A stretch of 64,000 bases of DNA from Coriobacteriia bacterium. Its GTDB lineage: Bacteria; Actinomycetota; Coriobacteriia; Anaerosomatales; SLCP01. The position numbers and the translations under genes were made by a program. The notes below the pieces were generated by a model. That model was not told the DNA's origin and searched no databases. It saw only the letters and a list, made by a program, of their open reading frames with translations. Positions 17,243 through 36,459 of this stretch are shown piece by piece (position 1 is the stretch's first letter; each line of letters starts with the position of its first letter). Location: contig SKMN01000020.1 in NCBI GenBank assembly GCA_007121015.1, forward strand, positions 1 through 64,000, read 5' to 3'.

Positions 17243-20200
17243 TCAGTATTGCAGCCAGACCGTGTCGAGGTAGAGGGCGTGGTCCTCGTGTCCGCCGCTC
17301 GTATGATCGATGCGGATGCGGAGCTCTTGTCCACCGGAGACGAACGAATCATCGGCCAGCGGGTACGTGTACATCCCATCGATCGACGCTGTGGGCAGCA
17401 TGCCGAGGACGACCCACCCAGGCGCGTCGTAGTCCCACGCCTCGACGTTCACGTTGTGGCCGAGGCCTACGCCCGCAGGGTCGTAGCGGCCCCAGATCCG
17501 AAAGCCGACAGGTGTCGACGTGACGCTCTCGAAACCGACTTCCACGCGCATGGCGTTGCTGCCCTGCTTCTCGTACGCGATGAAGTACTCGCCGTCCGGC
17601 GTCTCGGGTTCGCCCTCACCCGTCAGCTCCTCGATGCCACCGGACGTGCCCGCCCCGAATCCGTCCACTGCGGTGACGGATGTCGGCAGCAGCGTCCCGA
17701 CGACGCGACTGTACGCATTAGCGGTACTCCCAAGATGGCACGACGTGAAGCACGCTCCACCGTTGGCGGCGTCGACCCAGTCGACGTCGGTCCGGATGAG
17801 GTAGCGGTTCACGCTGCCGTGGTTGGTGTGACACGTCTGGCAGCTGAGCCCGAAGTCGCTCACGTGACGCGAGTGAAGCTGCGCGCCGGTAGTGGCGTCG
17901 TAGAACTCGCTGCCTTCCGCGTCATCGTGGTAGACGCCGTAGTCGTGACAGCCGTAGCACAGCATACCCCCGTCACCGGGCAAGATGCCGAGGATCGCCG
18001 AGGAGAGCAGCGGCGACGCCGGACTCACGTGCGGCCCGCGCGGAGCGGCCGGTGGAACTGCTTCCGCTTCCGCGTTGCCGTGACAGTCGACGCAGTGGAT
18101 CTGGGCTTCGGTGACGTCGTGCTCGCTCATCACGGGGTGCGCCGAACTGCTCGGCTCGGTCGAGTCGAACTCCGCCGCCACGTCACGCGGCGACCCGCCC
18201 CACGATGCCGGACCGTGACACTTGAAGCACGTCTCGTACTCGTAGTCGACTCCCCGCTTCAGAGTGTCACCCGCCGGGTCGTAGCCCCACGAACCCTTGA
18301 GGACGCCATAGACCTCGGGGGCCGGAGCGGTCGAAGCGTCGGCGACGTGCACGTTGTGACAATCGACGCACTCGGCGTGACGCGGGAATGAGCCTTGCTC
18401 CGTCGAATCGTGCGCTCCAGGGATCGCACTCGCCGGGTGACGGCTACGCCCCACCGGACCGAGGTCGGCAACCGCGATGCCGGGTGTTTCGCCGGCCAAC
18501 TCGACGCCGCCGGCCCAAAGATCCTCGTCGCGCACGAACGCGCTACCGTTCCAGTGCAACGACTGGACCGACGGTGAGACCGACTGGTCGACATCGCGCG
18601 AGAACAGGCCCGCGTTGGCAACGGCGACCTGGAGAAGCCCATCACCGTTCACGTCACCTGCCGCGAGGGAGGAGGTAGAGACCCGCTCCCCGGTCACCAC
18701 GTCGCTACGGTCGCCGAGCGTCCCGCCAGAGACCCCGAAGATACTCACGGCACTGTCGCCTGCTTCGTTACGGACGGCCACTGCAACGCCGAAGCCGCCG
18801 CCCGGCATGAACCCGTCGACGAGGGTGTCCCACGCGCGCGGCGAGCCAGCGGGAGCGGCAACCTCGTAGGTGTCGTCGAGCACGCCCTCGGCCGAGTAGA
18901 CGGAGATCGTAGGCGGAGCAACGTCCGCCTCCGCGATGACGATCCCGGGCCCGGTGTCAACGCCATCGCTGACGAGGTCAGGTCCGATCGACGGTCCACG
19001 CGCCCCGTCGGCAACGGGGAAGGTATCGGTCGCGAGCGTGGCCGCGTCGGGCTGTCTCATCACGTGTGCTTCCCAGGGGCTCGTAAGCTCCTCGGCGGAG
19101 CGCGCGGTCACCACGAGCTGCGCGTCGGAGATCCCGAGGCCGAGATCGCCCGTGGCGATACCGCTCGCGTCGTACCCGACATCGAACGGGCCACCGAGCG
19201 GCGCATCGACGCGCACGAGCCCGGAACCTTCCTGGTAGCGGTAGATGCGCAGCGTGCTCGAGCCGTCCCAATCCGCGCTTACGACCGCGATCTCCGGAAG
19301 ACCGCTGCCGTCGAGGACGAAGTCTCCCACCGCCACCAGCGACGCGGTCGCCTCGAGCGAGTAGGGCGTGGATGCGAGTCCCGCGAGCACGTCGTACCGG
19401 TAGACGTGGAGTCGTCCGGGATCACCCGGATCCGCGACCACCAGGTCCGTGCCGCCGTTGCCGTCGATACCTCCGTACGCGACCGCCACAGAACCGCTCC
19501 GCGCCTCAGGAGCTGTAGGCGCGTACCGGCGTGGCCCTTCGAGCGAGCGTGGCGCGTCCTCGTCGACACCCGTATACACGTGCAGCGAACCGTACGCGTG
19601 CGGCAGGTTCTCCGGGTCGTAGACGACCACGACCTCCTCGCCTGACAGGTCGGGTCCCACGGCCATCGATGCGAAGTCGGTCGCAGCAGGCCCGGTGTCG
19701 TTGTGACACCCGTAGCACAGGTCGCGACCCTCGACCTCCGCGAGCGCGTCGATCACGCCTCCTCGGCCGTCTTCGCGTCCCATGGGGTTGTGGCACGACT
19801 GGCACTCGCCGGCGAGACGTGTGGCGTCCTCGGAGGCCCACTCGCCCAGCGGCGCGACGGTGGCCACGGTCGAACCGTGCGAAGACGCCGAGTACACCGG
19901 CTTCCCGTCCCACGTCGTCACGGTGTCGGCTTCCTCGTGGCAGACGTAGCACAGCGTGCGGTCGTTCGCCTCGATGATTGCGACTGCAGGTGCAGCGGGG
20001 GTGGTGAACTCGCTTCTGATGAGCGGCGCGATCGCGGAGCCATGCGACTCGTGGCAGATCGAGCACGTGATGTCGGTCCCGAGAGCAGAGATATCGAGCC
20101 TGTAGTGCGCGGTGTCGCTGTAGACGCCGAGCCCTCGGAAGCGGTTGTCCTCGCGCGCCTCGAAATGGCACGTGGCGCAGTACTCCTCGGCGGCGTGGAA

Positions 20201-20767
20201 CTCGACACCGTCCGCGGTACGCGAACGCAGGAGCGCGGTGTAGGGCTCCTCGGACTCAGTGCGCGCCGTCCCGTGCGTGTCGTGACAGCTGCTGCACTGC
20301 TTGGGCGAGGGTCCGTACGCCGAGGATCCAGGGGCGATCAGGTGCGTAGAGTCTTTCGTGAACGCGGACTGTACGTCGGTGCCGGACCCGAGGGCGTCGA
20401 CGCCGTGGCACGTGAAGCACAGAGCGGTGTCCCCGCCGTTCGGCTCTCCGTCAGCCGGCGGAGCGGCGATGACGAGCGCCGAACCGGTCGTGTCCCACGA
20501 CCCTGCTTCAGCGCGCTCGACGACACCCGGGGCGCTGTGGCCGCGGTGACACATCGCGCACGCTTCGGGCGTGTCGCCATAGACGACGTGGGGGGCTGTC
20601 GACGCGTACGCCGGCACAGCAGCCAGCGCTACGAAGGCTGCTGTGATGAGCACGCCCTCGAGCACCTTGCCCCATGTCCCCACAGCGGTGCTCTCGCTCC
20701 ACTCGCGGGCACCGTGACCATGCGTCATCGGCCACATCCGTCCTGGAATCGTCTCGACGAGGGCCAT
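17243..20767 (-). CDS. Giant secreted multiheme cytochrome c with central FG-GAP/VCBS-type beta-propeller (14 heme motifs)
   Basis: 1174 aa; 8 CxxCH at N-terminus, propeller repeats (e.g. LAAGDVNGDGLLQVAVANAG), then 5 CxxCH + 1 CX3CH and a C-terminal beta-sandwich-like tail. Confidence 0.92.
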   Translation of the reverse strand: MALVETIPGRMWPMTHGHGAREWSESTAVGTWGKVLEGVLITAAFVALAAVPAYASTAPHVVYGDTPEACAMCHRGHSAPGVVERAEAGSWDTTGSALVIAAPPADGEPNGGDTALCFTCHGVDALGSGTDVQSAFTKDSTHLIAPGSSAYGPSPKQCSSCHDTHGTARTESEEPYTALLRSRTADGVEFHAAEEYCATCHFEAREDNRFRGLGVYSDTAHYRLDISALGTDITCSICHESHGSAIAPLIRSEFTTPAAPAVAIIEANDRTLCYVCHEEADTVTTWDGKPVYSASSHGSTVATVAPLGEWASEDATRLAGECQSCHNPMGREDGRGGVIDALAEVEGRDLCYGCHNDTGPAATDFASMAVGPDLSGEEVVVVYDPENLPHAYGSLHVYTGVDEDAPRSLEGPRRYAPTAPEARSGSVAVAYGGIDGNGGTDLVVADPGDPGRLHVYRYDVLAGLASTPYSLEATASLVAVGDFVLDGSGLPEIAVVSADWDGSSTLRIYRYQEGSGLVRVDAPLGGPFDVGYDASGIATGDLGLGISDAQLVVTARSAEELTSPWEAHVMRQPDAATLATDTFPVADGARGPSIGPDLVSDGVDTGPGIVIAEADVAPPTISVYSAEGVLDDTYEVAAPAGSPRAWDTLVDGFMPGGGFGVAVAVRNEAGDSAVSIFGVSGGTLGDRSDVVTGERVSTSSLAAGDVNGDGLLQVAVANAGLFSRDVDQSVSPSVQSLHWNGSAFVRDEDLWAGGVELAGETPGIAVADLGPVGRSRHPASAIPGAHDSTEQGSFPRHAECVDCHNVHVADASTAPAPEVYGVLKGSWGYDPAGDTLKRGVDYEYETCFKCHGPASWGGSPRDVAAEFDSTEPSSSAHPVMSEHDVTEAQIHCVDCHGNAEAEAVPPAAPRGPHVSPASPLLSSAILGILPGDGGMLCYGCHDYGVYHDDAEGSEFYDATTGAQLHSRHVSDFGLSCQTCHTNHGSVNRYLIRTDVDWVDAANGGACFTSCHLGSTANAYSRVVGTLLPTSVTAVDGFGAGTSGGIEELTGEGEPETPDGEYFIAYEKQGSNAMRVEVGFESVTSTPVGFRIWGRYDPAGVGLGHNVNVEAWDYDAPGWVVLGMLPTASIDGMYTYPLADDSFVSGGQELRIRIDHTSGGHEDHALYLDTVWLQY

Positions 20768-20805: not shown

Positions 20806-22392
20806 TTACCGTCGCGTGCCGCGACTGCCGCTACCCGACCGGCGAGCCCTCCGCTCCATCTGGTCCGATCCGTGCTTCTTCGGCGGGAGCGCGAACTCCT
20901 CCACGAAGCCGGCGACGTCGAGCAACTCCACTCCGCGAGCACCGGCGACAGTCGCCAGCATCGGGTCGCCGGTAAGCAGGACGTGGTGCCTGAGCGCGAG
21001 CGACAGCGTCTCGGAGTTCGCGTCTCCAAGCTCGTAGTCGCGTGCGATCTCCACGACGTCAGGGTGCGAGAACTCCGAGACCTCCGCGCGTGGCCCGGGT
21101 CGCCGGGGAGCATTCCTGGCGACCGTCGGAGTGAGGACGAGACGGACGCGGCGCCACTCCCATGCGGGATCGACAGATGCACGCAGCTCCTCGAGCGCCT
21201 CCCGCGAAACCACCACCCGGACCGGGCGGACGAACCACACGAGTGCCAGGGGCGCAAGCAGAAGGGGACCCGAGAGAAGACCGAGCCAGCTTGGACCGCC
21301 CTCCCACACGAGTGCGGCCAGACCACGCGCGTCGGGCCACTCGTACACCTGGATGCGAGCGTTGCCGGTGTCGGCGACGAATAGCGCAGTCTCGGTGACT
21401 GCCACATCGTTGGGGAACTGCAGCATGCCGCCCCCGCTCCCCGGCCCACCTACCCTACCCACCTCGGACCCGATGTCGCTCACGAGCACCACCTCGTGTG
21501 AGAACGCATCGATGAGCGCGAAGTGCGGTCGGGAGCCGGGTTCGCCTATCTCGAGCCTCGCAAGCCCCCGCACGAGCCGGCCGAGGGGCACCGAGCGCAC
21601 CACCTCGCCCGCACTACCGAGCTCGACGAGGCGGCGATTGTTGCTGTCGGCCACCCAGACCCGCCCCTCCGAGGCGACGACGGCGTTGGGGAAGTCGAAC
21701 GCGACCGACGGGGTCGTCTCCTCGGCCGCCTCCACGGAGGGAACCACGCCGAGCACCTCGCCCCCACGGCTCATGTGCCAGACCCGGTGTTCGTCTGCGA
21801 CGTCCGTTACGTAGATACTGCCGTCGTCGGCGCGAGCGACTGCGATCGGAGCCCAGGCCTCGACCGCAGCCGACTCCTCGGCAAAGCGGCCGACCGGGGT
21901 CACGGTCTCGACGAACGAGCCGTCGAACCCGAACACGAGGAGTGCGCGAAGCGAACGATCGGTCACGAGCAGCTCGCGGGCGTCCTCATCCCCGGCGAGA
22001 TAGAGGGGGACCTCGAGGCGGTCGTCGCCGATGACGCCCTCGAACGCGCCCCCCTCCCGGAAGACGGCCACGTGACCGGCGAGCGAATCGGCGACGTACA
22101 CCGTGCCGGCGATGACAGAGACGCCGACCGGCCGGCGCAGAGCGCTCTCGCCGGTGCCGGCGAACCCGTACGCGAACACGGGAGCCGATACGGCGGGTGT
22201 CGTTTCGGGCGCCGGTGCGCCCTCGGCACGTCCTCCCAGGATGCGCCTGGCGTCACTCGAGACGCCGAGGACACCGATGGCGAACAGGACACACACTGCG
22301 GTCACGAGCACGCGCCTGCGTCGACGCAGCCCCGGTAGCCGGGTAGCCGGCCCTGTCCGAGAAGCGCCGGGCGCGGGAGCGTGACCGCTCAC
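20806..22392 (-). CDS. NHL-repeat beta-propeller membrane protein with cytoplasmic PIN-like C-terminal domain
   Basis: NHL repeats (RRPVGVSVIAGTVYVADSLAGHVAVF; LQFPNDVAVTETALFVADTGNARIQVY), TM LLSGPLLLAPLALVWFV, tail with SETLSLALRHHVLLTGDPMLATVAGARGVELLD. Confidence 0.78.
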   Translation of the reverse strand: MSGHAPAPGASRTGPATRLPGLRRRRRVLVTAVCVLFAIGVLGVSSDARRILGGRAEGAPAPETTPAVSAPVFAYGFAGTGESALRRPVGVSVIAGTVYVADSLAGHVAVFREGGAFEGVIGDDRLEVPLYLAGDEDARELLVTDRSLRALLVFGFDGSFVETVTPVGRFAEESAAVEAWAPIAVARADDGSIYVTDVADEHRVWHMSRGGEVLGVVPSVEAAEETTPSVAFDFPNAVVASEGRVWVADSNNRRLVELGSAGEVVRSVPLGRLVRGLARLEIGEPGSRPHFALIDAFSHEVVLVSDIGSEVGRVGGPGSGGGMLQFPNDVAVTETALFVADTGNARIQVYEWPDARGLAALVWEGGPSWLGLLSGPLLLAPLALVWFVRPVRVVVSREALEELRASVDPAWEWRRVRLVLTPTVARNAPRRPGPRAEVSEFSHPDVVEIARDYELGDANSETLSLALRHHVLLTGDPMLATVAGARGVELLDVAGFVEEFALPPKKHGSDQMERRARRSGSGSRGTRR

Positions 22393-22396
22393 GTCG

Positions 22397-23290
22397 TCAC
22401 TGTCCCGCGATCGCTCTCGCAGCCGCGATCATCGCGTCCTTGTGTTCGGCGGGGTTGTCCGAGGTCGTGTAGAACTCCAGCGAGACCATGATGCCACGGT
22501 CGAGCATGCCGAGGCGGACGTAGTTGGGGCGCGTGCCGATATAGCCCTCCAGGCTGCCGATGGAGATATCCTCTCCCGCCGTGGGGAAAGGTCGCCGGAC
22601 ACGCTCGTCGAGCATCCGCCGTGCGTGTGCGATGTCCCCGAACTGCTCGACCTCGACAGAGAGCTGGACGATCGAGCCCTGCTGCTCCGGAAGGTAGTCG
22701 CGGAAGAGCACGAACGGATCGGACGTGACCGACTGGCCGACGAAGCCGGGGATGCGGTCGGGGATGTAGTGAGTGAGGTTGGCGATGGGCCCTACCGGGT
22801 CTTGCCCACCCGTGTCGCCACCTGGCGTCTGGTCGCCCGATCCGCCGGGCGAACCGCCGCCGGCAGACCCGCCGGGAGTGCCGTTACCGGGTGCCGTCGC
22901 CGCGTCCCCTGACGAGCCGTCCCCGCCTGCGCGCAGACTGGCGAGCCGCGAACTCGTGTTCCTGAACGAGGGGTCTTCCTCGGCGATCTCCTCGAACGCG
23001 CGCTTCGCGGCCTCGAGGTCGCCAGCGGCGAGCGATCGCTCGGCCTCCTCATAGAGGGCCGCGAGTTTCTCGTGGAAGTCGCACGTGATCACGCGGGTGG
23101 TCACGCCGTGGTCGGCGACCTCGTCGGCGGGCACCTCCCGCAACTCGACCGTGTCGGAGACGACATGCCCCTCCGTGCAGAGGACGATCTCGCCGGTCTC
23201 GACCTGTACCATCTGCTTGCTGCACCCTGGCGCGACGAGCATGACGGCGACGAGCGCCGCGGCCATCGTCGTGGTGATCAAGTGCCTCAT
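22397..23290 (-). CDS. Predicted lipoprotein with TPR-like segment and Gly/Pro-rich linker
   Basis: Lipobox-like VMLVAPGC; linker GNGTPGGSAGGGSPGGSGDQTPGGDTGG. Confidence 0.75.
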   Translation of the reverse strand: MRHLITTTMAAALVAVMLVAPGCSKQMVQVETGEIVLCTEGHVVSDTVELREVPADEVADHGVTTRVITCDFHEKLAALYEEAERSLAAGDLEAAKRAFEEIAEEDPSFRNTSSRLASLRAGGDGSSGDAATAPGNGTPGGSAGGGSPGGSGDQTPGGDTGGQDPVGPIANLTHYIPDRIPGFVGQSVTSDPFVLFRDYLPEQQGSIVQLSVEVEQFGDIAHARRMLDERVRRPFPTAGEDISIGSLEGYIGTRPNYVRLGMLDRGIMVSLEFYTTSDNPAEHKDAMIAAARAIAGQ

Positions 23291-24744
23291 CGTGTTCGAC
23301 CTCCTGGTGACCTCACGGCTATCCCGCGCGAACCTCTGTCCCGCACCGTCCGGTACACCGCTTGCGCGACCAGGGCCGCACTCGCGATGCCGAGCGCCGC
23401 GACCTGCGCGTCGACAGGTACGGGCTCGAACACGATGTTCGCATACTCCGTGCCGTAATCGTGCTGTACCTCCGAAGGAATCCACGATATCCACGTTTGT
23501 AGGGGCGTGAATCGCACCCACGCGTACGCGAGGGCGCCCGTCGCGCCACCCGCCACCGCCGCCCACGCACCTGCGAGCGACATGCGTTCGGCCCACGAAG
23601 CCAGCGCGAGCAGGGCGACCGCGAGGACGACCCACCCGCCGACCGTGCGATACCCATCGAGCGTGAAGTTCGCGAGGAACGCCGCTCCGTCCTGCGTGGT
23701 CCCGGTGGAGGTGCCGGCGACACCGGGAGAGCCCATAGCGAACAGCGCCACCGCGACCGACGCCGCAGCGACGACGATGCCCGCCCTGCGGAGCCAGCCG
23801 GCAACATCGCCTGATCGCCGGGTGGGTGCCGGCTGGAGAGCCTGCGTGACCGGAGTCCGCGACGACGCGAGTGCCACGAGGACCGCACCACCTACAGTGA
23901 AGGTCGCCCATCCAGCCGCGTCGAGCAGTATCGGCCGAGGACCGAACACGCCGGTAGCTTCTTCGACGAAGAGCAGCGCCGTGATAGCCGAAGGTGTGAG
24001 CAGGTATGCCGCGCCGGCCGCGTGAGTCCCGACGCGTCGTGCGACCTCTACCGTCAACGCGAACGTGAGCCCTCCGGCGGCGAAGTACGGGAGCGCCTTC
24101 GACGGGGCCGCGAGAGACGCGACGTCACCTCCGGTCTGCGCGAGCGACCACACGAGCGCTCCGAGGAATGCCGCTCCCGCGGCAGGCAGGTAGACCGGAC
24201 GTCTTCCGTGTGTCATCGCCATGCGGGCGATCACCATCACCGCCACCGCGAGCAGTACGCCGGCTGCGATCATCGCTGCCTCGCGATCCGGGTACCTGAC
24301 GAGAAGCGAGAACGAGCTCGGCCGCTCCCAGTTGCCGAGGACCCCCATCGCTCCCGCCGCGCCGAGCACCGCGGCGGCGACCCACACCGGCCTACGCGAC
24401 ACGACCGCAGCGGCGATCATGAGCAACCCGCCTGTGACCGCAGTCGTCCAGAACACGACGACAGCGCCCGGTGGTACGTCCGTAGCGCGGTTCGCGAGCA
24501 CGAAGGCGGGTGCGACCGCGCTTCCAAGGATGCCCGCCGCCGCTACGAGGAGTCCGTCCCGCGCGCCGAGGGCCTTCAGGTCTGCCCGCCGAGGAACCCC
24601 GCCAAGGACCCCGAGGAACACTGCAGCGGCGAATGTGACACCCAGGAGAAGCGACGGGGTGGTCGTGAGAGCTACGACCGCCGTCTGGAAGACGAATGCG
24701 GCAGCCACGGACAGTCCCAGCAGGAGCCACAACACGGCGCTCAC
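23287..24744 (-). CDS. Polytopic membrane protein of unknown function
   Basis: Many hydrophobic segments; overlaps the lipoprotein start (ATGA-type coupling). Confidence 0.7.
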   Translation of the reverse strand: MSAVLWLLLGLSVAAAFVFQTAVVALTTTPSLLLGVTFAAAVFLGVLGGVPRRADLKALGARDGLLVAAAGILGSAVAPAFVLANRATDVPPGAVVVFWTTAVTGGLLMIAAAVVSRRPVWVAAAVLGAAGAMGVLGNWERPSSFSLLVRYPDREAAMIAAGVLLAVAVMVIARMAMTHGRRPVYLPAAGAAFLGALVWSLAQTGGDVASLAAPSKALPYFAAGGLTFALTVEVARRVGTHAAGAAYLLTPSAITALLFVEEATGVFGPRPILLDAAGWATFTVGGAVLVALASSRTPVTQALQPAPTRRSGDVAGWLRRAGIVVAAASVAVALFAMGSPGVAGTSTGTTQDGAAFLANFTLDGYRTVGGWVVLAVALLALASWAERMSLAGAWAAVAGGATGALAYAWVRFTPLQTWISWIPSEVQHDYGTEYANIVFEPVPVDAQVAALGIASAALVAQAVYRTVRDRGSRGIAVRSPGGRTR

Positions 24745-24783
24745 GGCTATGTCTCCCGTTCGTGAGGGAACCGTAGCAGAAGA

Positions 24784-24812
24784 GGGAGGGCCGGGCTCAG
24801 CCCGACCCTCCC
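24784..24812 (-). terminator. Strong intercistronic hairpin
   Basis: Minus strand GGGAGGGTCGGGCTGAGCCCGGCCCTCCC, ~12-bp stem, between the 6-heme cytochrome stop and the next gene start; no T tract. Confidence 0.45.
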
Positions 24813-24851
24813 CTCGAGTGCGCTCAGAGCGCTCCCGATAGTCGTGCGATG

Positions 24852-26003
24852 CTACTTGTTGTGGCACTGCTGGCAGACACCACGGTTGTCGAGCCTCAAG
24901 AACGCGTTCTTGTTGCCCGGGTCCACGCCGCCGACGCCACTGTCGGGCTCGGGGTCGGTGGAGTCGAATACGTTCGCATAGCCTTCCATCACAGCGTCGG
25001 AACCGTGCGCACGGTGACAGGTCAGACAATCGATCCAGTCGGTTTCGCTACCGGTGGTCGAGAAGCTGTCCTGCGCGAGCGGCAGCACCTGGTCGGTGAT
25101 GATGAGCGAACGGGGGCCCTTGTAGTTCGCGAGCTCCACGTTCACCGGGTGACGGTAGCGCATGGTGTAGCCGAAACCGTCGTTGGCATCGTAGACGCTC
25201 GAGATAGCAAGGTCATCACGGTGGTACTGCGTGTGGCATGCCGCACACCAGGCGCTGATGCCGCGGGTCGGATCCTGAGCAGGAGCCTTCGCGTACATGG
25301 GCATGGTGTAGTTCGGCTCGTAGCCCGCCATCTGGGCAGCGCCAGGCTCGTGGAGGAGCCAGCCGTCCTCAGGATATCCGGGCTCGTTGGAGATCACGTA
25401 CGGATCCGGCACGAAATCGCCAGGCGTAGGCTCGGTGTAGCCACCGACAGTCACGCCGTTGACGATGTCCTTGAGCAGGCGGTAGTTCGAGCTACCGTGC
25501 ACGTCGTGGCACGAACCGCAGCTCATCGCGATCAAGCCGCCGTGACCAGTGGAGATGATGCCGTCGCGACCAGTGTCGCCGCCACCCCACGCGCCCCACG
25601 AGCTACCGTTGAAGGTGTGCTTGTTCTGCCCGACGACATGGTCGCCGAATGCACCGCTGTTGAGCATCATGCCCGTCGTGCCGTAATCAGTACCTTCGTA
25701 GATACCGTCGACGACGTTGGTGTCAGCACCTGCAGCCGCCTGACCGTGACACGTGAAGCAGAACTCGTAAAGCTCTGTCGCGGTCGACAGCAGCAGCGCG
25801 CTACGCTGCTCGCCGTCGTTGTTGGTCCACGTGATCGGGCTTGCCGCAGTATGTGCCCTGTGGCAGCCGGCGCACGCATCGGTATCCATGGAGTAGCCGC
25901 CATGAGGCCCGAAGTTCGCGAGCGCGATACCAGGGGTGAGGAGCAGCACAGACGCGACTACGGCGACTGCGAGCATGATTGAAAGCTTCCGCATACCGAT
26001 CAC
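24852..26003 (-). CDS. Hexaheme c-type cytochrome (CxxCH family) coupled to formate dehydrogenase
   Basis: 383 aa, signal peptide, 6 CxxCH: CAGCH, CFTCH, CGSCH, CAACH, CLTCH, CQQCH; start overlaps stop of the FDH beta gene. Confidence 0.92.
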   Translation of the reverse strand: MIGMRKLSIMLAVAVVASVLLLTPGIALANFGPHGGYSMDTDACAGCHRAHTAASPITWTNNDGEQRSALLLSTATELYEFCFTCHGQAAAGADTNVVDGIYEGTDYGTTGMMLNSGAFGDHVVGQNKHTFNGSSWGAWGGGDTGRDGIISTGHGGLIAMSCGSCHDVHGSSNYRLLKDIVNGVTVGGYTEPTPGDFVPDPYVISNEPGYPEDGWLLHEPGAAQMAGYEPNYTMPMYAKAPAQDPTRGISAWCAACHTQYHRDDLAISSVYDANDGFGYTMRYRHPVNVELANYKGPRSLIITDQVLPLAQDSFSTTGSETDWIDCLTCHRAHGSDAVMEGYANVFDSTDPEPDSGVGGVDPGNKNAFLRLDNRGVCQQCHNK

Positions 26004-26863
26004 CCCTCTCTCATTCCGACGGACTCTTCCATGTTCGCCTGACGGCGAGCGATCACCGCGAGCAGTCCGCCCGCAAGGAGCGTCGGCACGAGTGCCGCCT
26101 TGGCGAACGGGCCTGTGAGCAGATTCGACATCATCGGCGTCACGTGATCCTCGATGTAGGGATCCGCCTTGGGCTGGATGATGATCGCCCTTCTGCTCGC
26201 CCAGAACACACTACCATCACCCTGCGCGGAGATGAACTCGTTCGCAGGATCGTTGATGTAGGCATGCACGTTCTCGCGCGTGTCCCACTTCATGGCATTG
26301 GCCGGGCACGTGTACACGCAGCTCGGCTCGTGGTCCATCTCAGCGACGTGAGCAGAGTCCGGTAGGTTGTTGGAGTTCATCGGCAACGGGGTACCGTAGG
26401 TCGAATCGAGATCGGCGTCGGCTCCGGCGCGACCCCAGCACAGGGTGCACTTCCACGACTTGGCGGTGGGGAACTTGTCGCTTCCCTCTCCGATCTTCGG
26501 GTAACCGGAACGGTTACAGTCGAGCTGGCACTGATGGACACACGTGACGCCAGCCGCGTTCGTTCCTCCGGGATTGCAGAGGTTCGGGTCGATCGACACC
26601 GCACCGTTGCCCTCCTTGGCAAGCGCGTCGAAGGGACAGCGCTTCACGCAGGGCGGATCGGGGCAGTGCCAACAGCTGAACCTGATGAACGGACCGTTGT
26701 CCACGCGCTTCTGAGACTTGATGATGATCCGCACGTCCGGGGCCACCTTGTGCACACCCGGGTTCTCGGCCTTCATCATCCACGTACGCTTGCAGCTGAT
26801 GACGCACCCGTTGCACCTGACGCACCTGTCGACGTCCTGGAAAATCGCCATAAGGTTACTCAT
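26000..26863 (-). CDS. Formate dehydrogenase beta (4Fe-4S) subunit with C-terminal TM
   Basis: CVRCNGCVISCKRTW, CWHCPDPPCVKRCPFDAL, CTLCWGRAG, CVYTCPANAM clusters. Confidence 0.9.
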   Translation of the reverse strand: MSNLMAIFQDVDRCVRCNGCVISCKRTWMMKAENPGVHKVAPDVRIIIKSQKRVDNGPFIRFSCWHCPDPPCVKRCPFDALAKEGNGAVSIDPNLCNPGGTNAAGVTCVHQCQLDCNRSGYPKIGEGSDKFPTAKSWKCTLCWGRAGADADLDSTYGTPLPMNSNNLPDSAHVAEMDHEPSCVYTCPANAMKWDTRENVHAYINDPANEFISAQGDGSVFWASRRAIIIQPKADPYIEDHVTPMMSNLLTGPFAKAALVPTLLAGGLLAVIARRQANMEESVGMREG

Positions 26864-26877
26864 CGTTCACCACCTCC

Positions 26878-29800
26878 TTACATCTTCTCGATTCGGCAGA
26901 GACAGGCCTTGTACTCGGGGATCCGAGTGTTCGCATCGAACGAGTCGATGCACAGGTCGTTCGCACGCGAGCCAGTGGAGAGGCCCTTGTCACCCCAGTG
27001 CCATGGAATCGCTACGACGCCGACTCCGACGCGCTGGTTGGACTCGGTACCGACGCCCACGCGGGCGATGAAGCCCTGCGAGAAGCCGGAGTCCGTGTGA
27101 GGCGAGGCGGGATCCAAGAGATCTCCCTGATTAGCCGTGTCGGCACGTGCGGTGATCACGTTGATCATGTCGCCGGACTGGATGCCGAGTGCGTTCGCGT
27201 CGACCGAGTTGATCTCGATCCACGGGATCGGCTCACGCTCGACGTTCCACGCGTTGTTCCGCGTGATAGGTCCACCCTGGAAGTGCTCGACGCACCGGAT
27301 GGTGGTGAGCACGAGCGGGTAGTCCGACGGATCCTTGCGGTGGGTCGCAGGATAGTCCGCGTCGTTCGTTGCGACATAGCTGGGCTCGTAGGCTGCTCCG
27401 GTGGCAGCGGTACCCGTGTGGATCAAGTCCCACTTGGCAACGCCGCGAGTGTTGCGGCCAAAAATGGTCAGCATATCCGGGTTCTTGACCTCGAGCGGCG
27501 TCTCGTAGGGCTCCACGTGCGCAGGGAAGCGGCCGGGGAGTCCGACCGAGTGCACCGGGCTCGTGCCTGCGTTGTCCGGCATGTCTGAGAGACCGTGCAC
27601 CAGTCGCCAGTTGTTGTTGGCGTAGCTGATGGTACCGGGCTGCTGGCAGACGAAGAGGCGCGCGCACCTGTCGGGACCCTGATAGCCGTCGCCGACATCG
27701 CCAGGGACGTCGCCGTTGTTGTAGAGCACGCGACGGTTGACGAGCCACGAGTAGCCCCAGCCGGGATAGGCGTAGGTGCCGTTCGGGTCGGCCGTCGCAC
27801 GCTGCTTGGACCGGTTGGCACACAGCCACGGATCCTGACCGGTATGCAGGCGAGCCGTCTGTGTCAGGTCTGTGTTGTACGCATCGAGATACAGCCACAT
27901 CGTACCGCCGGCTGCAGGCACGGGACAGCACTGCTTGTAGATGTTCTCCGCGACGACCTCCGAGCCGTACACGGTATCCATCTCGGGTGCGTCCTTGTTC
28001 GCGTACCACATCTCCGTGACCGCGCTGACCTCCTCGAAGGCGGCAGCGTCAGCCGGGCTCCAGCCGTACTGGTCCCTGTAGAGCTTGTTGTAGACGACAC
28101 GCGCGTCGGTGACGTCCCAGCCCAGGCCGTCCCAGACGTCCTTGATGTGGCTGAATCCATCAGCGAGATCGACCGCGTACGCGAAGCGCAGCAGGAGTTC
28201 GAGATCGGACCTGCTGTTGCCCTTGGGCGGACACGCACGCTCGCGCCACTGCAGGACACGGCCGGAGTTCGCAACGCTGCCTGCTTCCTCGGCGTGCGAG
28301 CATGCCGGGAAGAGGTACGTGACGCCGCCCGCCTTGCGGTCGACCGCGGCGGTCTCCGTCTCGAACATGTCGGTAACCACGAGGACGTCGAGTTCCCTGA
28401 AACCGTCACGGATAGCCGACTGGTTGGGCTCGGTGACCGCAGGGTTCTGGCCCCAGACGACCATGCCGGTGATATCGCCTGTAGACGCTTTGCGGAACAT
28501 GGTGATGTGATCATCGCCGTTGTTCTTGGGCCACAGGCTGTAGATCGCGTCGACGACCGCACGCTTGGCGTCGTTGGCGTCCCGCTCGGCCTGGTTCGTG
28601 GCACGAGCGTAATACGTCATGTCGTTCACGGTGGCCCAGTCGCCGAACCAGTTGAGCGTCATGTTGTAGAAGCCGTCGGCCTGAAGTGCGAGTCCGCCCT
28701 TGATGCGATAGGCGTCGTCGTACGCCAAGGCATACGTGTCGGGCGCCTGGAAGTCCGCGAACCGAGTGGCCTGACCCCACAGCTTGTCGGTGTACTGACC
28801 GAAGGTGACTCCTTGTCCCGGGTTACCGGAGTAACCGGGGATGAGGTGCTGGAGCACGCCCATGTCGGTCGAGCCCTGCACGTTGTGGATACCGCGGAGA
28901 GCGTTGATGGCTCCGCCTGCACGACCGACGTTGCCGGTCAGGATCTGGAGGTTGGCGAAGGTCTTCACGTTCTGGGAACCGTGAGTGTGCTGCGTGAGGC
29001 CCATCGCGTACATCATCTGCGTAGCGCGATAGTTCTCGAAGTCCCGCGGGTCTTGGGACCCGACGACCGAGTCACCCGTGAGAGCCGAGCTCGTCATTCG
29101 GCTGTGGTCCACGAACGCCTGCGCGACGAACGCGATCTCCTCTTCCGTGACGCCACATATCTCGGCAGCCACATCGAGAGTATACGGCTCGATGTGCTCC
29201 TTGAACTTACTGAAAACGGTCCCCGGGTCCCTGAAGTCCGCCGCCTTCGCGGGCAGGTACTCGAAGTCGGTGGGATCGGTGCTCATATCGCGCTCGTAGT
29301 CCGTGCCACCAGCGTTCACGATGAAACGAGCATCGGTGTACCGGGAGCCCTGGATGCCTGCAGGCGTGGCGACTTCACCGTCGTTGCGGCGGAAGGCCTG
29401 GTCCTCCGTCTGGTTCATGAAGGCTACCCAGTTGTCCCTGACCGCCTGCGGCACGTTGCCCTCGACACCCTCGAAAAGACGGATGATCTGACGGGCGACC
29501 GCGTTGTTGAACGCGATGTCGGTGCCCGGACGGTGCCGGATGAACCGGCCGCCGTAGTTCTCCGCGAGCAGTGCGGTGCGCGACTTGCGAGGATCGATGA
29601 CGATCATGGTCGCAGCGGGACGCGTGTCGTGCGCCCGCATCACGTGCGCGGTCGCTGCAGGATGGTTCTCGACGAAGTTCGAACCCATGGCCACGAACAG
29701 CGTCGAGTTCGCCATGTCGGCCCAGTTGTTCGTCATAGCGCCTCGTCCGAATGCGGAGGCCAGACCGGCCACCGTGGACGAGTGTCAAATACGGGCCTGG

Positions 29801-30417
29801 TGCTCGATGTTGCTCGTACCGAAGTTCGCGATGACCTTACGGTACAGGTAGTTCTGATCGTTGTTCATGTGCGATGAGCCGAAGAACGCGACCGACTTGG
29901 AGTTGTTCTCCGTCGGAGCAAGAGATAGGTCGCCACGTGCGGTAAGCATCGCCGCGGCCGCCTCGTTCATCGCGGTCTGGAGATCCATCTTCGTCCACGC
30001 GCCGTTGCCGGTGCGCTTGTACCCTACACCGTTCGGGAACGCGGGATCGTAGTCGAACGTCGAATTCTCCGGATGGTTCGAGAATGCTCCGAGACGGCGA
30101 TCGTTGTTCACGAGCTGGAAGGTCCCGGCGCCCTTGGAGCACAGGCCGCCCGCGTTCCAGGGGGCCATGTGGTCGCCGTAGATATCCAACACGTTGCCAT
30201 CGGAGTCCACGTCGACGAGCTGACCACAGCTCGCCGAACAGTACGGACATGTGGTGTGGTAGGTCGCTTCAACCGTTGCGGCGTTGGCGGTCGACGGCTT
30301 GGCGGCGAAATCAATGCCCGCGGCGCCGACGGCAGCTGTGGCCGCTCCCGCTTTCAGGAAATCCCTACGCGAGAGTTGCAGCTTCCTCCCATCCATGTCC
30401 TTGTCAAGTTTACCCAT
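26878..30417 (-). CDS. Selenocysteine-containing formate dehydrogenase catalytic (alpha) subunit, Tat-exported
   Basis: RRDFLKAGAATAAVGAAG Tat motif; CPYCSASCG 4Fe-4S motif; [30 protein letters not shown]: in-frame UGA (29785-29787) at the FDH Sec position; reading frame continues 968 codons. Confidence 0.95.
29755..29787 (-). promoter_or_regulatory. SECIS element of the formate dehydrogenase gene
   Basis: UGA followed by 11-nt spacer, stem GGTGGCC/GGCCTCC with a T-T mismatch/bulge, apical loop GGTCT; same GGUCU loop as recalled for E. coli fdhF SECIS. Confidence 0.85.
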
Positions 30418-30556
30418 GCGTCTTCCCTCTCTGTTCGTCCGCGGTTCTCCTCGCGGAGACCATGCGAATCGTCATGCGGACGGTTCTCCGCCCGCACTAC
30501 ACGTTGTCGCGGTAGACCTCCTTCCCCGTGCGTCCTGGGGGTGAGAGTTGAGAACG

Positions 30557-30605
30557 AAAAAACCGGCCAGCAGTAGGGCGCATGGGCGCCGAACCGATAA
30601 CCGGT
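30557..30605 (-). terminator. Candidate intrinsic terminator/expression platform inside the FDH leader
   Basis: Minus strand GACCGGTTATCGGTTCGGCGCCCATGCGCCCTACTGCTGGCCGGTTTTTT: ACCGG/CCGGT stem enclosing GGCGC-CCAT-GCGCC hairpin, followed by T6; lies 140 nt upstream of the FDH start. Confidence 0.45.
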
Positions 30606-30685
30606 CTTCATCTCATCTCTGCTCCCTTACCCCGCGTACCGATGCCGACGGACCCCTTTGCCGGAGGATCCGCCTCACTACATCA

Positions 30686-30772
30686 GTCCCCTTTCCAAAC
30701 GGGAGGCCCCGCAGTTTCCTGTGGAACCCTATCGGCCCAACCACCATGACCATCCCGGTTGTAGGTGTGTGG
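30686..30772 (-). ncRNA. Candidate Moco/Tuco-type riboswitch aptamer in the FDH leader
   Basis: Minus strand AACCGGGATGGTCATGGTGGTTGGGCCGATAGGGTTCCACAGGAAACTGCGGGGCCTCCCGTTTGGAAAGGGGAC aligns with the leader upstream of tupA. Confidence 0.6.
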
Positions 30773-30836
30773 GGCTCGGGAACGATGATCCTGTTGTCAT
30801 CCCGATCCACGGCGTTCGCCCTGGATACAGGGGGCG

Positions 30837-30854
30837 TTGTAACAATTGTTACAA
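30837..30854. promoter_or_regulatory. Perfect 18-bp palindrome, CRP/FNR- or Rex-like operator candidate
   Basis: TTGTAACAATTGTTACAA just upstream of the FDH leader RNA. Confidence 0.55.
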
Positions 30855-30957
30855 ACGCCATGTACATAGACTACCACACCGCTGCCACGTGTCAATACGT
30901 ACCCGTAACCGCCCACGCTCATCCGCGTCTACGTGCGGCTCCGCAGTGGAAGGTCGC

Positions 30958-32490
30958 TTACCTGCCACCGCCCTCGCGTGTCTTGAGGAACTTCTCCGCG
31001 AACAGGCGCGCATCGTAGACATCGATACCGAGCGCGCGTCCGGCGACCGCGAGTCCCCGGTCCTGCGTGCAGAGGGTCTTGGCACGCTTGGCCACGACCA
31101 GCAGGACTGCCGTACGGTGTTCGACACCGATCCGGTCCATGAGGTCCCTCGCGTCGGACTCGGAGTGCGCCTCGGGTGTAAGGAGCTCGTCGAGGGACAC
31201 GCCACCGAGCTCCCGGCCTTCGTAGCGCGAATACTCGTCGGCGGGCACGATCCACTTCCACCGCTTCTTCCCGGCCATCGCGACGATGAGGTCGGCAGCG
31301 GCCATCTCCTCGAGGAAGTCCTCGGTGACCGCGAAGCGGCGCCTACGCAAGAGCAAGAGTAACGGCAGCAGAAGGAGAGGTGCCAGACAGAGGGCCCATT
31401 GCGTCGGGGTCTCGGGAACGGGCGGGACCACAGGGATCGGCTCCGGCCAACCCCACACCTGGACCTGGTGGTTGACGCGGTCAGTGAGGAAGATGCGTGT
31501 ACGCTGATCGAGCGCGAGATCGTTGGTGTATCGGAACTGCCCGGGACCTACCCCTGGCCCACCGAAGCCAGCGATCCGCTCTCCGGTCGCACGGTAGACG
31601 TCGGCCTGGTGAGCCAGTGCGTCAGCCACGTAGAGACGTGCCTCCTCGTCCATGTCGATCCCGCGCGGCGTACCGGAGGTCCGGATGAAGTACTCGAACT
31701 GCCCCTCCTGGGTGAAGACCTGGATACGCCGGTTGTTGCTGTCCGAGACGTAGACCACCCCGTCACGCACGTGGATGCCGTTGGGGAAATCGAACAGGCC
31801 CGGAGAGTCCGTGACCTGCTCCACGCGCCCGAAGCGCCCGAAACGCCGGATCTCGTTGCCCTGGGGATCGAAAGCGATGACCTGGTGGAGGTCGGTCCGG
31901 CCCACATCGGTGACCCACAAGTTCCCGTCCTCGTCGAAAGCCATCGCGAGCGGGCCCCACACCGCCGCCTCCTCGGGATCGGCGGGAACGATCTTGCGCA
32001 GGTAGTCCCCATCGGCCGTGAATACGTAGACCGCGCGGTGGCGCCGGTCGGAGACGTGCACTTCGCCAAGCGTGTTGACCTGCACGTATACCGGCGTGCC
32101 GAGCTCGGTGCGCTCTCCGTCGCTTATCGCGGAGATGCTGAACTGGTAGTCGCCGTCGACGTTGTATACGCGCACGACGTTGGCGACCCCGTCGGTGACG
32201 TAGACGAGGTCATCGGCGGACACGCTGACACCCCACGGCTCCGCGAGCGCGTCGGGACTCCCCTGCGGTCCGCTTATCGAGTAGAGGTACTGCGGCGGTG
32301 CGACGACGTCCTCGGCGGTGCGCACGATCCCCGGCACGGGAAGGCGCCGGTGGACGTTGTAGTAGTACACCGAGTAGAGCGCGGCCGCCAGCAGCGCGAG
32401 CAAGACGAGCAGCGCGACGATCTTCTTCCACGGCGTACCGGAGTCGGCCTTGCCGAACGGTTCGCGTTCCCGCTGTACATCGTGTGCCAT
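30958..32490 (-). CDS. NHL-repeat beta-propeller membrane protein with PIN-like C-terminal domain (paralog of 20806..22392)
   Basis: N-terminal TM, NHL repeats (LFDFPNGIHVRDGVVYVSDSNNRRIQVF), second TM WALCLAPLLLLPLLLLL, tail SESDARDLMDRIGVEHRTAVLLVVAKRAKTLCTQDRGLAVAGRALGIDVYD. Confidence 0.78.
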   Translation of the reverse strand: MAHDVQREREPFGKADSGTPWKKIVALLVLLALLAAALYSVYYYNVHRRLPVPGIVRTAEDVVAPPQYLYSISGPQGSPDALAEPWGVSVSADDLVYVTDGVANVVRVYNVDGDYQFSISAISDGERTELGTPVYVQVNTLGEVHVSDRRHRAVYVFTADGDYLRKIVPADPEEAAVWGPLAMAFDEDGNLWVTDVGRTDLHQVIAFDPQGNEIRRFGRFGRVEQVTDSPGLFDFPNGIHVRDGVVYVSDSNNRRIQVFTQEGQFEYFIRTSGTPRGIDMDEEARLYVADALAHQADVYRATGERIAGFGGPGVGPGQFRYTNDLALDQRTRIFLTDRVNHQVQVWGWPEPIPVVPPVPETPTQWALCLAPLLLLPLLLLLRRRRFAVTEDFLEEMAAADLIVAMAGKKRWKWIVPADEYSRYEGRELGGVSLDELLTPEAHSESDARDLMDRIGVEHRTAVLLVVAKRAKTLCTQDRGLAVAGRALGIDVYDARLFAEKFLKTREGGGR

Positions 32491-32502: not shown

Positions 32503-33510
32503 CTAGTCCTGCTGTCCGAGTCGTTCGACCGCGGATGCGGCATCGGCATCGCCCGGTGCTATGTCCAACACGGCTTGCCACGCATCCATCGCGTCCCGGG
32601 TCTCCCCGACACGCTCGTACAGGATCGCGACGAGCTTGGCCGCCTCGAGGTCGGCGGGCTCGAGCGCATGCGCGATGCGCGCCTCGTAGAGTGCCGCCGA
32701 CGGCTCGCCGTCGGCGAGGCGCCGGGCCTCCGAGATGCGATCCTCGAACGGACCGAGCTTCGCGAGCTCATCGTGGGGCTCGCGCCGGTTGGGCGGAGCG
32801 TTCTCTGCCGAAGTACGGAAATGCTCCGCCGCCGCGGCGACGTCACCGTCAGCGAGCATGAGGAGACCGTAGTCGTAATTCGCCTCCGGCATCCCCGGGT
32901 CGAACATGAGCGCGTTCTCGAGGAACGTACGCTGGTTGCCCTCCGAGCCGATCTCGCGATAGGCCACCGAGAGTGCGTAGTGGGTATCGGATGCCGAGCG
33001 CCTGATGCGCAGCGCCTCGTGCAGGTACTGCGCGGCCTCCTCGTAGCGACGCTGCTCGAGGAGGGTCATGCCCATCTGGTGGAACGCAACAGCGAGACGC
33101 TGGTCGAGACCGGAGAACTGTCCGCCGGAAAGAGCCTCGATCGCCTCGTGCCAGTAGTCCTCGGCCACCTGCCACTCGCCCTGGAACATCGCAATCAGCC
33201 CGAGTCCGCTCAGTGCGTCGGGGTTGTTCTCGTCGAGTTCGAGCACCACATTGTACTGCTCGATGGCTTCCCGGGGCTGACCCGCGGCTGCATAGGCCTC
33301 GGCGAGCGCGAGTCGTAGTCCGATGTCGTCGGGGTTCTGCTCGATGGCGACGATGAGGTTGTCGATCGCGCGCGAGGCGGGTGCCCCGCGACGTTCCTGG
33401 GACTGCACCGACACGACGCTGTACGCCAGATAGCCGATGGTGAGCACCAGGATGAGCGCGACCCCTTTAAGGGCCACATCGAGCCATCGTACGTCTTGCA
33501 GGAAGTTCAC
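32503..33510 (-). CDS. Membrane-anchored TPR-repeat protein
   Basis: N-terminal TM then TPR units (AIEQYNVVLELDENNPDALSGLGLIAMFQGEW etc.); GTG start. Confidence 0.85.
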   Translation of the reverse strand: MNFLQDVRWLDVALKGVALILVLTIGYLAYSVVSVQSQERRGAPASRAIDNLIVAIEQNPDDIGLRLALAEAYAAAGQPREAIEQYNVVLELDENNPDALSGLGLIAMFQGEWQVAEDYWHEAIEALSGGQFSGLDQRLAVAFHQMGMTLLEQRRYEEAAQYLHEALRIRRSASDTHYALSVAYREIGSEGNQRTFLENALMFDPGMPEANYDYGLLMLADGDVAAAAEHFRTSAENAPPNRREPHDELAKLGPFEDRISEARRLADGEPSAALYEARIAHALEPADLEAAKLVAILYERVGETRDAMDAWQAVLDIAPGDADAASAVERLGQQD

Positions 33511-33554
33511 GCGCCTCTCACCTCGATACGGTGTCCGCCTCACGCACAGGCGGG

Positions 33555-35150
33555 TCAGATGTTCAGGTCATCGTGGCACCTGCGGCAGAGCTGGGAGCCC
33601 GGCCACGGTGCGATCAGGACGTTGCGGAAGTCGAGATTGCCGTGACAGTCATAACAGATACGCAAGTCGTGTGCCTGAGTTTCGAACGCATGCTGTCCGA
33701 CACCGCGTACACGCGCCACCGTAAGCCCGATGTGGCAGTCGTCGCAGCGGTACGGTCTACCGACGCGTTCCTCGACGTCGAAGTGTACCGCGTGCTCGAC
33801 GAGTCCCATCACCTGGATGTCTGTCGCTGGCTCGGTCGCCATCTCGGGATGGCAGCCGACGCAGTTCTCGGCGAGCAGTTCGACGTCACGCACCGCGTCG
33901 TGGTGGCACTCCTGACACGTGGTGCGATCCTGGTGGCACACCTTGCAGTCATCACGCGAATACCCGTTCGACGTGTGGGTGGCCAGCCACACCGTGGGAT
34001 GCGGCATCGGGGTCTCGTGGCAGCGGGCACACGACTCATCGGTATGACAAATCGAGCACCCTCCCTGTCCGCCGAGGAACAAGCCGCCGTGTTCGGCCAT
34101 CCACTCCACGCGGCGGTGATCGTCTGGGATCACCTCGGGGCTCATCGTGCCATCGGGAAGCTCCCTCTCGCCGCGGTGGCACTCGGCGCAGAAGTCCGAG
34201 GCGTGGCACATTACGCACTCGACGAGGTTCTCCTCGGCGGGTTCACGATGGTCGCGCTCGATGAACACGACCGTGTGGTCGGCCGGCACGAGCTCGAAGT
34301 CAGCGGGGTGGCACGCCAGGCACTCCTCGGTGGCGACCTCACCCCTGTCGGCGTGCTCGAGGCTATGGCACCGGTAACACGAGAGCATGTCCGTGCGCTC
34401 GATGTGATCCGGCCGGTGAGGGAACGTCTCGTGGCAGGTGGCGCACCGGTAGTCGCGTGCGATGTGGACATCGTGCGTGAAGATGACGCCGTTCCACTCG
34501 CCCCGTTCGATGTCGGGATGGCAGAAGACGCACTGGCCCATCGTCACGGGGCCCTCGGTGTCGATCACGACCGACGGCCGAGACTCGACCACCGGGATAG
34601 TACGCAGGAAGATCGGTGGCACGCGGGGCGTCTCGATCTCCTGCTCGCGGTGGCACGTATCGCAGTCGGCACGGGCGTCGTGACACATGATGCACTCGTT
34701 GGAGCCGGCTCGCTCGACTGCGTCGGCGTGTGGGGTCTCCACCCAGTCGTCCGTGTGAGTGGCCGGACGCAGTTCGAACACCTCGGTGTGGCAGTGATCG
34801 CACGAATCGGCGGCGATGACGCCTCCAGCACCGTGCACGAGGCCATGACATGCGAAACACGTCACCATCGGCGGGCTGTGCGTCTGACCGGCCTCGTGAG
34901 CCGTGCGGATATGGCACGCGGTGCAATCGACCATGATGTGCGTGCCGTGGTTGAACACGAGGCCCGGGTCGCGTGACTCGGCTATGCGAGCATGACACGC
35001 CGAGCACGTGGTAGCGCTGACCGGGGCCGTGAGGTCGATCTCGGTCGGCACCATGGTGCCGACCCCCTGATTGGAGCCGGTCATGGCGAAGACGGTCGCC
35101 ATGATCACGACCGCCACTGCCACGTACACGTATCGACGGCTCAGGTCCAT
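33555..35150 (-). CDS. Multiheme cytochrome c, 20 CxxCH motifs
   Basis: 531 aa, N-terminal TM/signal; 20 CxxCH counted manually. Confidence 0.94.
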   Translation of the reverse strand: MDLSRRYVYVAVAVVIMATVFAMTGSNQGVGTMVPTEIDLTAPVSATTCSACHARIAESRDPGLVFNHGTHIMVDCTACHIRTAHEAGQTHSPPMVTCFACHGLVHGAGGVIAADSCDHCHTEVFELRPATHTDDWVETPHADAVERAGSNECIMCHDARADCDTCHREQEIETPRVPPIFLRTIPVVESRPSVVIDTEGPVTMGQCVFCHPDIERGEWNGVIFTHDVHIARDYRCATCHETFPHRPDHIERTDMLSCYRCHSLEHADRGEVATEECLACHPADFELVPADHTVVFIERDHREPAEENLVECVMCHASDFCAECHRGERELPDGTMSPEVIPDDHRRVEWMAEHGGLFLGGQGGCSICHTDESCARCHETPMPHPTVWLATHTSNGYSRDDCKVCHQDRTTCQECHHDAVRDVELLAENCVGCHPEMATEPATDIQVMGLVEHAVHFDVEERVGRPYRCDDCHIGLTVARVRGVGQHAFETQAHDLRICYDCHGNLDFRNVLIAPWPGSQLCRRCHDDLNI

Positions 35151-35159
35151 GCGTCCAGA

Positions 35160-36398
35160 CTACCCCCGACCACGCATCGAGCGCCACCATCGCAAGACCG
35201 GATTGCCGTCCCGCGCGGCGCTCCGTCCGTGGATCAAGTCGGCTGACTGCTCGATGAACGACTCGTCAGAGCCGGGATGACAGTCGCCGCAGACGGCGAT
35301 CGCATTGGTGACGTACATCATCGAATCGGGATCCGCGACCTCGCGGACCTCATGCGACCCGTGGCAGTCCCAGCATGCCGGAGCGTCGGGCGCACCACGC
35401 TTGTAAGCTCTGCCATGGTAGTAATCGTCGTACGTGTCCCACTCCACGCGGTGGCACTCGGCACACATCTCCTCGGAAGCGAAGTGGAGGTCGCGCCGCG
35501 CACGATCCGTGTCGAGACGCGAGATGTCGTGACCCCCGTGACACGAGGAGCACGTGGCCGAGGTGTAGTCGCCCTCGGCGATGAGTCTGCCGTGCAACGA
35601 CTCGTCGTACTCGGCGACGATGTCGGCGTGGTCCTCGAGGTGACACGCGGCACACGCGAACCCGACGTTGATGCGCCACAGCGGGGTCGCAGGCTGCGTG
35701 TCGGTGTAGTTGAAGTCGACGTGACACTCACCACAGGTGTTGTCCCGGTGTGCCGAGTGCTCGATGCCGGTCACGTAGAGGGACTCGGTCCCGTTGCGGG
35801 ACGCCTTGGCGAGATCCGGGTTGCCGTGACACGAGAGGCACCCGTTGCCCACGTCGAAGGTGAACGACATCGAGCGCCACTGGACTCCGAGTTCGTCGTG
35901 GCACACGTCACACTGCGCGTGCGTGTGACACATCGCGCACTCGGTGCGCAGGCGCTCCTCGGCAGGCTCGACGTGCGGCGTCTCGGCCCAGTCGGGCGTG
36001 TGCGATTCGGGACGCAGCCCGGTGCGGTCGGCGTGACACTTCTCGCATGCCTCGCCGGCGATGAGCCCCATCGGACCGTGGCGCAGACCGTGGCAGGCCC
36101 AGCATTCGAGCATGTCGGGCGTCTCGGTGCCGGCAGGGGTGTGCGGGAAGCGGACGTGGCAACTCGAGCATGCCGCCCACATGTGCGTGGCGTGACGGAA
36201 GTCGACGATATCGCTGTCCACCTCGGCGATGCGTCCGTGACACACCTTGCACGTACTCGCGAAGACGGGAGCGCCCGCCTGTATCGCGTTTTCCTCGGCA
36301 CCGACGGAAGACGGACTCGTGAGCACCAGCACCAGGACGCCTGTGAGCGCCGCGGCGAAGGCGAGGATGCCGGTCCACGCCCCGAACCTGTAGGTCAT
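35160..36398 (-). CDS. Multiheme cytochrome c, 13 CxxCH motifs
   Basis: 412 aa; 13 CxxCH counted, includes CWDCHGSHEV. Confidence 0.94.
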   Translation of the reverse strand: MTYRFGAWTGILAFAAALTGVLVLVLTSPSSVGAEENAIQAGAPVFASTCKVCHGRIAEVDSDIVDFRHATHMWAACSSCHVRFPHTPAGTETPDMLECWACHGLRHGPMGLIAGEACEKCHADRTGLRPESHTPDWAETPHVEPAEERLRTECAMCHTHAQCDVCHDELGVQWRSMSFTFDVGNGCLSCHGNPDLAKASRNGTESLYVTGIEHSAHRDNTCGECHVDFNYTDTQPATPLWRINVGFACAACHLEDHADIVAEYDESLHGRLIAEGDYTSATCSSCHGGHDISRLDTDRARRDLHFASEEMCAECHRVEWDTYDDYYHGRAYKRGAPDAPACWDCHGSHEVREVADPDSMMYVTNAIAVCGDCHPGSDESFIEQSADLIHGRSAARDGNPVLRWWRSMRGRG

Positions 36399-36459
36399 CG
36401 TCCCCTACCCTTCCACACCGTGTCAGATGCGAGACTCGACGGATGCGGTCTCGCGCGAT

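Follow-up and report, generated by a model that had tools for sequence, protein, structure and literature searches.

In Mycobacterium, the protein PknD joins an NHL propeller lying outside the cell to a cytoplasmic protein kinase domain by way of a transmembrane (TM) segment, while the YacL-type PIN-TRAM proteins are integral membrane proteins that bear a PIN-like domain. Excerpts of several published reports also place genes for NHL propellers within clusters of multiheme cytochromes, namely those of UetH/UetI (PMC10734462), DFE_0451 and DFE_0463 of Desulfovibrio ferrophilus (PMC9769857), and a locus of Geoalkalibacter ferrihydriticus (PMC12016550). Geobacter GSU2505, encoded beside omcS, was considered as a further NHL protein and was dropped, as it is listed as hypothetical in a table of PMC10599522. 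Among the Anaerosomatales, Parvivirga hydrogeniphila encodes a cluster of multiheme cytochromes and a molybdopterin oxidoreductase (MCL4079376-90) that has been proposed to serve Fe(III) reduction (PMC9686372). Little is known of how multiheme cytochromes for electron export are constructed and placed in monoderm bacteria, and the genes described here lie among such cytochromes.

The Q1 gene and its operon

The window, which is the whole 64,000-nucleotide stretch of DNA that was analysed, contains an open reading frame with a GTG start codon, here termed Q1, together with a paralogue, Q2. The relevant features are as follows.

17243-20767, minus strand: multiheme cytochrome downstream of Q1, 13 CXXCH motifs, FG-GAP propeller repeats (Pfam, motif count)
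20806-22392, minus strand: Q1, 528 aa, TM segment, NHL propeller, TM segment, PIN-like tail (ORF call, Pfam, hydropathy)
20893-21222, minus strand: modelled PIN-like domain of Q1, about residues 391-500 (AlphaFold2, Foldseek against the PDB, alignment)
21223-21291, minus strand: second TM segment of Q1, about residues 368-390 (hydropathy)
21343-22179, minus strand: NHL beta-propeller of Q1, about residues 72-350 (Pfam NHL, PDB sequence matches)
22255-22311, minus strand: first TM segment of Q1, residues 28-46 (hydropathy)
22397-23290, minus strand: putative lipoprotein upstream of Q1, weak TPR match (Pfam, sequence)
23287-25029, minus strand: multi-TM membrane protein, start codon uncertain (overlap with the adjacent gene) (Pfam, hydropathy)
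24852-26003, minus strand: hexaheme c-type cytochrome, 6 CXXCH (Pfam, motif count)
26000-26863, minus strand: 4Fe-4S electron-transfer subunit (Pfam)
26878-30417, minus strand: molybdopterin oxidoreductase, formate-dehydrogenase-like, TAT signal (read with TGA as U, sequence context)
30958-32490, minus strand: Q2, paralogue of Q1 with the same architecture, 510 aa (search, AlphaFold2 tail model, Foldseek)
32503-33543, minus strand: TPR protein with a membrane anchor, encoded immediately upstream of Q2 (Pfam, hydropathy)
33555-38204, minus strand: three multiheme cytochromes, with 20, 13 and 7 CXXCH motifs, plus a membrane protein of the cytochrome b561 type (Pfam, motif count)
L154, 3902-5404 (G000:C10, same genome): third paralogue with the NHL - TM - PIN-like order, preceded by a TPR gene, with a 7-CXXCH protein close by

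From 17243 to 38204, adjacent genes overlap or lie no more than 61 bp apart, with the single exception of a 540 bp gap. Q1 itself begins 4 bp downstream of the putative lipoprotein gene and ends 38 bp upstream of the cytochrome gene on the same strand. The first-pass annotation had placed a 14-heme propeller cytochrome next to Q1; the next gene of the operon is indeed a cytochrome with FG-GAP repeats, while 13 CXXCH motifs were counted in it, and a CX3CH in the translated sequence may account for the 14th. Several other observations concern the neighboring genes. The one long gap of the run, at 30418-30957, separates Q2 from the formate-dehydrogenase-like gene, and the latter contains an in-frame TGA (29785-29787), probably a selenocysteine codon; the next residues are His-Ser-Ser, a context shared with selenocysteine formate dehydrogenases. 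The multi-TM protein matches no Pfam family and occupies the same operon position in many relatives, and the hexaheme cytochrome has a single PDB sequence match (9yuq, E 3.7e-8). The 20-CXXCH cytochrome (33555-35150) retains about 20 motifs in most relatives with a complete gene. Outside the studied operon, an ORF on the minus strand at 227-2314 encodes 21 CXXCH motifs.

Within Q1, the NHL repeats are recognized by Pfam (PF01436, E 3.6e-16, 58.7 bits against a cut-off of 20), and the propeller, searched as 300 residues against PDB sequences, aligns from end to end with NHL propellers of solved structure (TRIM71, E 2.4e-18). The hydrophobic stretches lie at residues 28-46 and about 370-388. Basic residues precede the first TM segment and follow the second, and both termini are therefore predicted to be cytoplasmic and the propeller extracytoplasmic. 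The external NHL propeller, TM segment and cytoplasmic tail that had been read from the sequence initially are thus borne out by Pfam, PDB matches and hydropathy, and the tail string quoted at the time is present in the translation. Some 30 low-complexity residues follow the PIN-like core.

Fold and active site of the cytoplasmic tail

The C-terminal domain of Q1 (~110 aa) was modelled by AlphaFold2 with a pLDDT of 88.9 and the Q2 tail with a pLDDT of 94.7, both from a 46-row alignment whose rows came from the window plus the named genome scan; sharing input sequences, the two models are not independent. When compared with the PDB by Foldseek, nearly all leading matches of both models were PIN domains, including SSO1118, PAE2754, HARP RNase P and VapC4, with best E-values of 5.0e-4 (Q1) and 3.7e-4 (Q2), a probability of 1.00 and TM-scores of about 0.5-0.65. 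Since PIN domains lead the matches for both, the tail as modelled is a PIN-like fold of the three-layer alpha/beta kind, and the PIN-like character proposed for it in the first-pass annotation stands at the level of predicted structure. In Pfam, the tail matched no family above cut-off, PIN models included, and the best sub-threshold PIN matches (PIN_4, E 0.0084; PIN, E 0.087) concerned at most 3 of 43 members. A PDB profile search gave a weak match to HARP RNase P (E 0.74), and hhalign, run with nine PIN proteins, covered just the C-terminal half of the tail in local mode, with a low probability of 12.7% (P about 0.002), and found nothing meaningful in global mode. The Pfam scan of Q1 detected neither a TRAM domain after the PIN-like domain nor a protein kinase domain.

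The acidic residues of the canonical PIN active site are largely missing from the alignment. At the first position, located at the end of strand 1 and assigned from the secondary structure of the models, 38 of the 46 rows have Thr, 3 have Ser and a single row has Asp; Q1 has Ser396 here. The second position could be placed only to within one residue, and the neighboring column is acidic in 27/46. The third and fourth positions were assigned by the low-probability hhalign match, which agrees with the models: the third is acidic in 11/46 rows (Asp in 3, Glu in 8), and the fourth is Asp in 37/46, including Asp476 of Q1, and is lost as well in divergent members. Because so little of the acidic set remains, canonical nuclease activity is unlikely, a verdict drawn from the alignment rather than from superposed coordinates, and the tail is not supported as a functioning PIN nuclease.

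Paralogues, relatives and gene order

At least three copies of the TM-NHL-TM-PIN-like gene are encoded in the genome, namely Q1, Q2 and the third paralogue. Among 100 genomes searched, 76 contained Q1 matches, many of them propeller-only, and 56 contained tail matches, one of which (G086) is the SRP protein Ffh, a false positive left out of the counts. A scan of species genomes with Q1 alone gave no match. The species-genome scan used here had a Q2-type full-length alignment as seed, with the best 80 matches kept; these comprise 73 loci and do not form an unbiased census. Within them, the tail profile finds a match at every one of L081-L131, whose titles name Actinomycetota lineages, and at none of L132-L153, which are mostly Chloroflexota; L134 and L144 break off within the propeller. 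A phylum-wide draw added other tail-bearing families, with ORF lengths of 487-554 aa, two marginal matches aside, and the tail was seen only in ORFs of propeller-protein length, barring contig-end fragments and chance matches. When the tail is mapped as a label on the propeller tree, it accounts for four changes, the root being arbitrary. In family f12, the tail is missing from most homologues at the Q1 position, L028 being the one that retains it; this points to loss of the tail in most of them, subject to the same arbitrary root. An N-terminal extension of the L008 homologue was considered as a TPR fusion and dropped, as it did not resemble the TPR reference.

Across Anaerosomatales and other Actinomycetota, the architecture recurs almost always among multiheme cytochromes, and such neighbors are likewise found in the third paralogue group and beside tail-less relatives, so that the association with cytochromes is not peculiar to this locus. 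Tail-positive genomes are nearly nested within PF09699-positive ones (53/55; Fisher p 2e-6 over all 100 genomes, which are related), whereas within the order alone no significant association between tail and PF09699 presence was found (p 0.12).

Gene order is conserved as well, and in a group of subsurface bacteria the gene is found time and again next to those for a TPR protein and multiheme cytochromes. Q2-type loci recur, whole or in part, as cytochrome b, multiheme cytochromes, TPR and NHL genes, followed by a formate-dehydrogenase-like gene, an FeS subunit, a hexaheme cytochrome, a membrane protein, a lipoprotein and a second NHL gene. Members of the third group, G000:C10 included, lie directly after a TPR gene and near multiheme cytochromes; at one of them, L159, the sole cytochrome-type neighbor has three CXXCH. 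The tail-less relatives (L132-L153) have a TPR gene upstream of the NHL gene in 22/22 loci, usually with a cytochrome of 6-7 CXXCH after the NHL gene where the contig goes on. This tail-less order, TPR, NHL and hexaheme or heptaheme cytochrome, occurs in Chloroflexota and some Actinomycetota, and it could point to a cytochrome assembly module of wider occurrence. In Pfam, the TPR model of CcmH/CycH cytochrome c biogenesis proteins finds the TPR genes, with scores below or above cut-off. CcmH/CycH bind apocytochromes.

Possible roles and comparison with known systems

Based upon these features, we tentatively read Q1 and its paralogues as membrane-anchored accessory proteins of multiheme-cytochrome (electron-export) clusters, forming an assembly or scaffold module with the TPR protein and bearing a non-catalytic tail, a reading to which we give somewhat less than an even chance. 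It draws, by sequence and structure prediction, upon the propeller, the two TM segments, the PIN-like fold, the degenerate site, the recurrent cytochrome neighborhood and the membrane-anchored TPR gene that immediately precedes copies of the Q2 and third types. Working together on the outer side of the membrane, the TPR protein and the NHL propeller would keep in place, mature or assemble the neighboring cytochromes, and the cytoplasmic PIN-like domain, an actinobacterial variant, would act as a non-catalytic docking or regulatory platform. At Q1, the role of the TPR protein would fall to the upstream putative lipoprotein; its TPR match is weak, and the case is therefore stronger for Q2 than for Q1. 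Between the signalling and assembly roles suggested in the first-pass annotation, gene order leans towards assembly or scaffolding, and the presence of one NHL copy per cytochrome cluster suits a dedicated partner. Against this, TPR is a generic repeat, of which CcmH/CycH is one match among many, gene proximity would suit a structural subunit or a sensor equally, and the tail shows no significant association with PF09699 inside the order. A more ambitious form of the proposal, in which an undescribed transmembrane family and its dedicated TPR partner would connect the assembly or redox state of extracytoplasmic cytochromes with the cytoplasm by means of a PIN-like pseudoenzyme, is doubtful at present.

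The rival explanations assign the same parts differently. Were Q1 a transmembrane sensor similar to PknD, its propeller would bind either a cytochrome or some ligand, with the PIN-like domain signalling to a cytoplasmic partner. An external NHL propeller, a TM segment and a cytoplasmic domain fit such a sensor, the propeller matches the PknD sensor domain in sequence (1rwi, E 5e-5), and polar residues conserved in the tail (Thr12, Asp14, Ser66 and Asp69 in A5 numbering) hint at a binding surface. However, a recognized signalling output domain is absent, the propeller is kept without the tail in the Chloroflexota relatives and in the majority of f12 homologues that occupy the Q1 position, and a single copy per cytochrome cluster fits a local partner better than a regulator, so that we consider a sensor rather unlikely. 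Much the same low likelihood attaches to a structural subunit of a membrane-bound electron-transfer complex, whose propeller would hold the cytochromes permanently while the tail merely served as an anchor. Operons shared with cytochromes, an Fe-S subunit and a molybdopterin enzyme are consistent with this, as are the two TM segments, but the conserved fold and polar residues of the tail exceed what an anchor needs. By far the least probable is an active PIN ribonuclease tethered to the membrane, whose cleavage of RNA would be triggered by the propeller: the PIN fold and the fourth acidic position (37/46) would accord with it, yet Asp occupies the first position in only 1/46 rows, the third is acidic in 11/46, and the fourth is gone in divergent members.

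The conserved TPR and NHL pair, which Actinomycetota and Chloroflexota repeatedly encode in their cytochrome clusters, provides named candidates for a role in constructing these cytochromes, and a cytoplasmic domain of PIN-like fold suggests a route by which the cell interior could participate. A membrane protein of receptor-like build with a PIN fold stripped of its catalytic residues would, if true, put the domain to an unusual use.

When compared with known systems, PknD shares the propeller and differs in its kinase, in place of which Q1 has the PIN-like tail. The YacL-type PIN-TRAM proteins, to which we take 3ix7, a Foldseek match of the Q2 tail, to belong, have no propeller, whereas no TRAM domain was recognized in Q1. 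SSO1118, PAE2754, HARP RNase P and VapC4 resemble the Q1 and Q2 tails in fold, but they are soluble and mostly possess the acidic quartet, whereas the Q1 tail is fused to a membrane protein and has largely lost it. For UetH/UetI, DFE_0451/DFE_0463 and the Geoalkalibacter locus, compared by description only, the excerpted reports mention neither a PIN-like tail nor a TPR partner. The Parvivirga hydrogeniphila cluster, compared by its content, is similar to that of Q1/Q2, and the paper mentions neither NHL nor PIN (PMC9686372). In the open-access literature, no published description of the TM-NHL-TM-PIN-like architecture was found, which is a weak sign of novelty. The known kind to which Q1 comes closest is that of the NHL accessory proteins of cytochrome clusters, and the new part is its PIN-like cytoplasmic domain.
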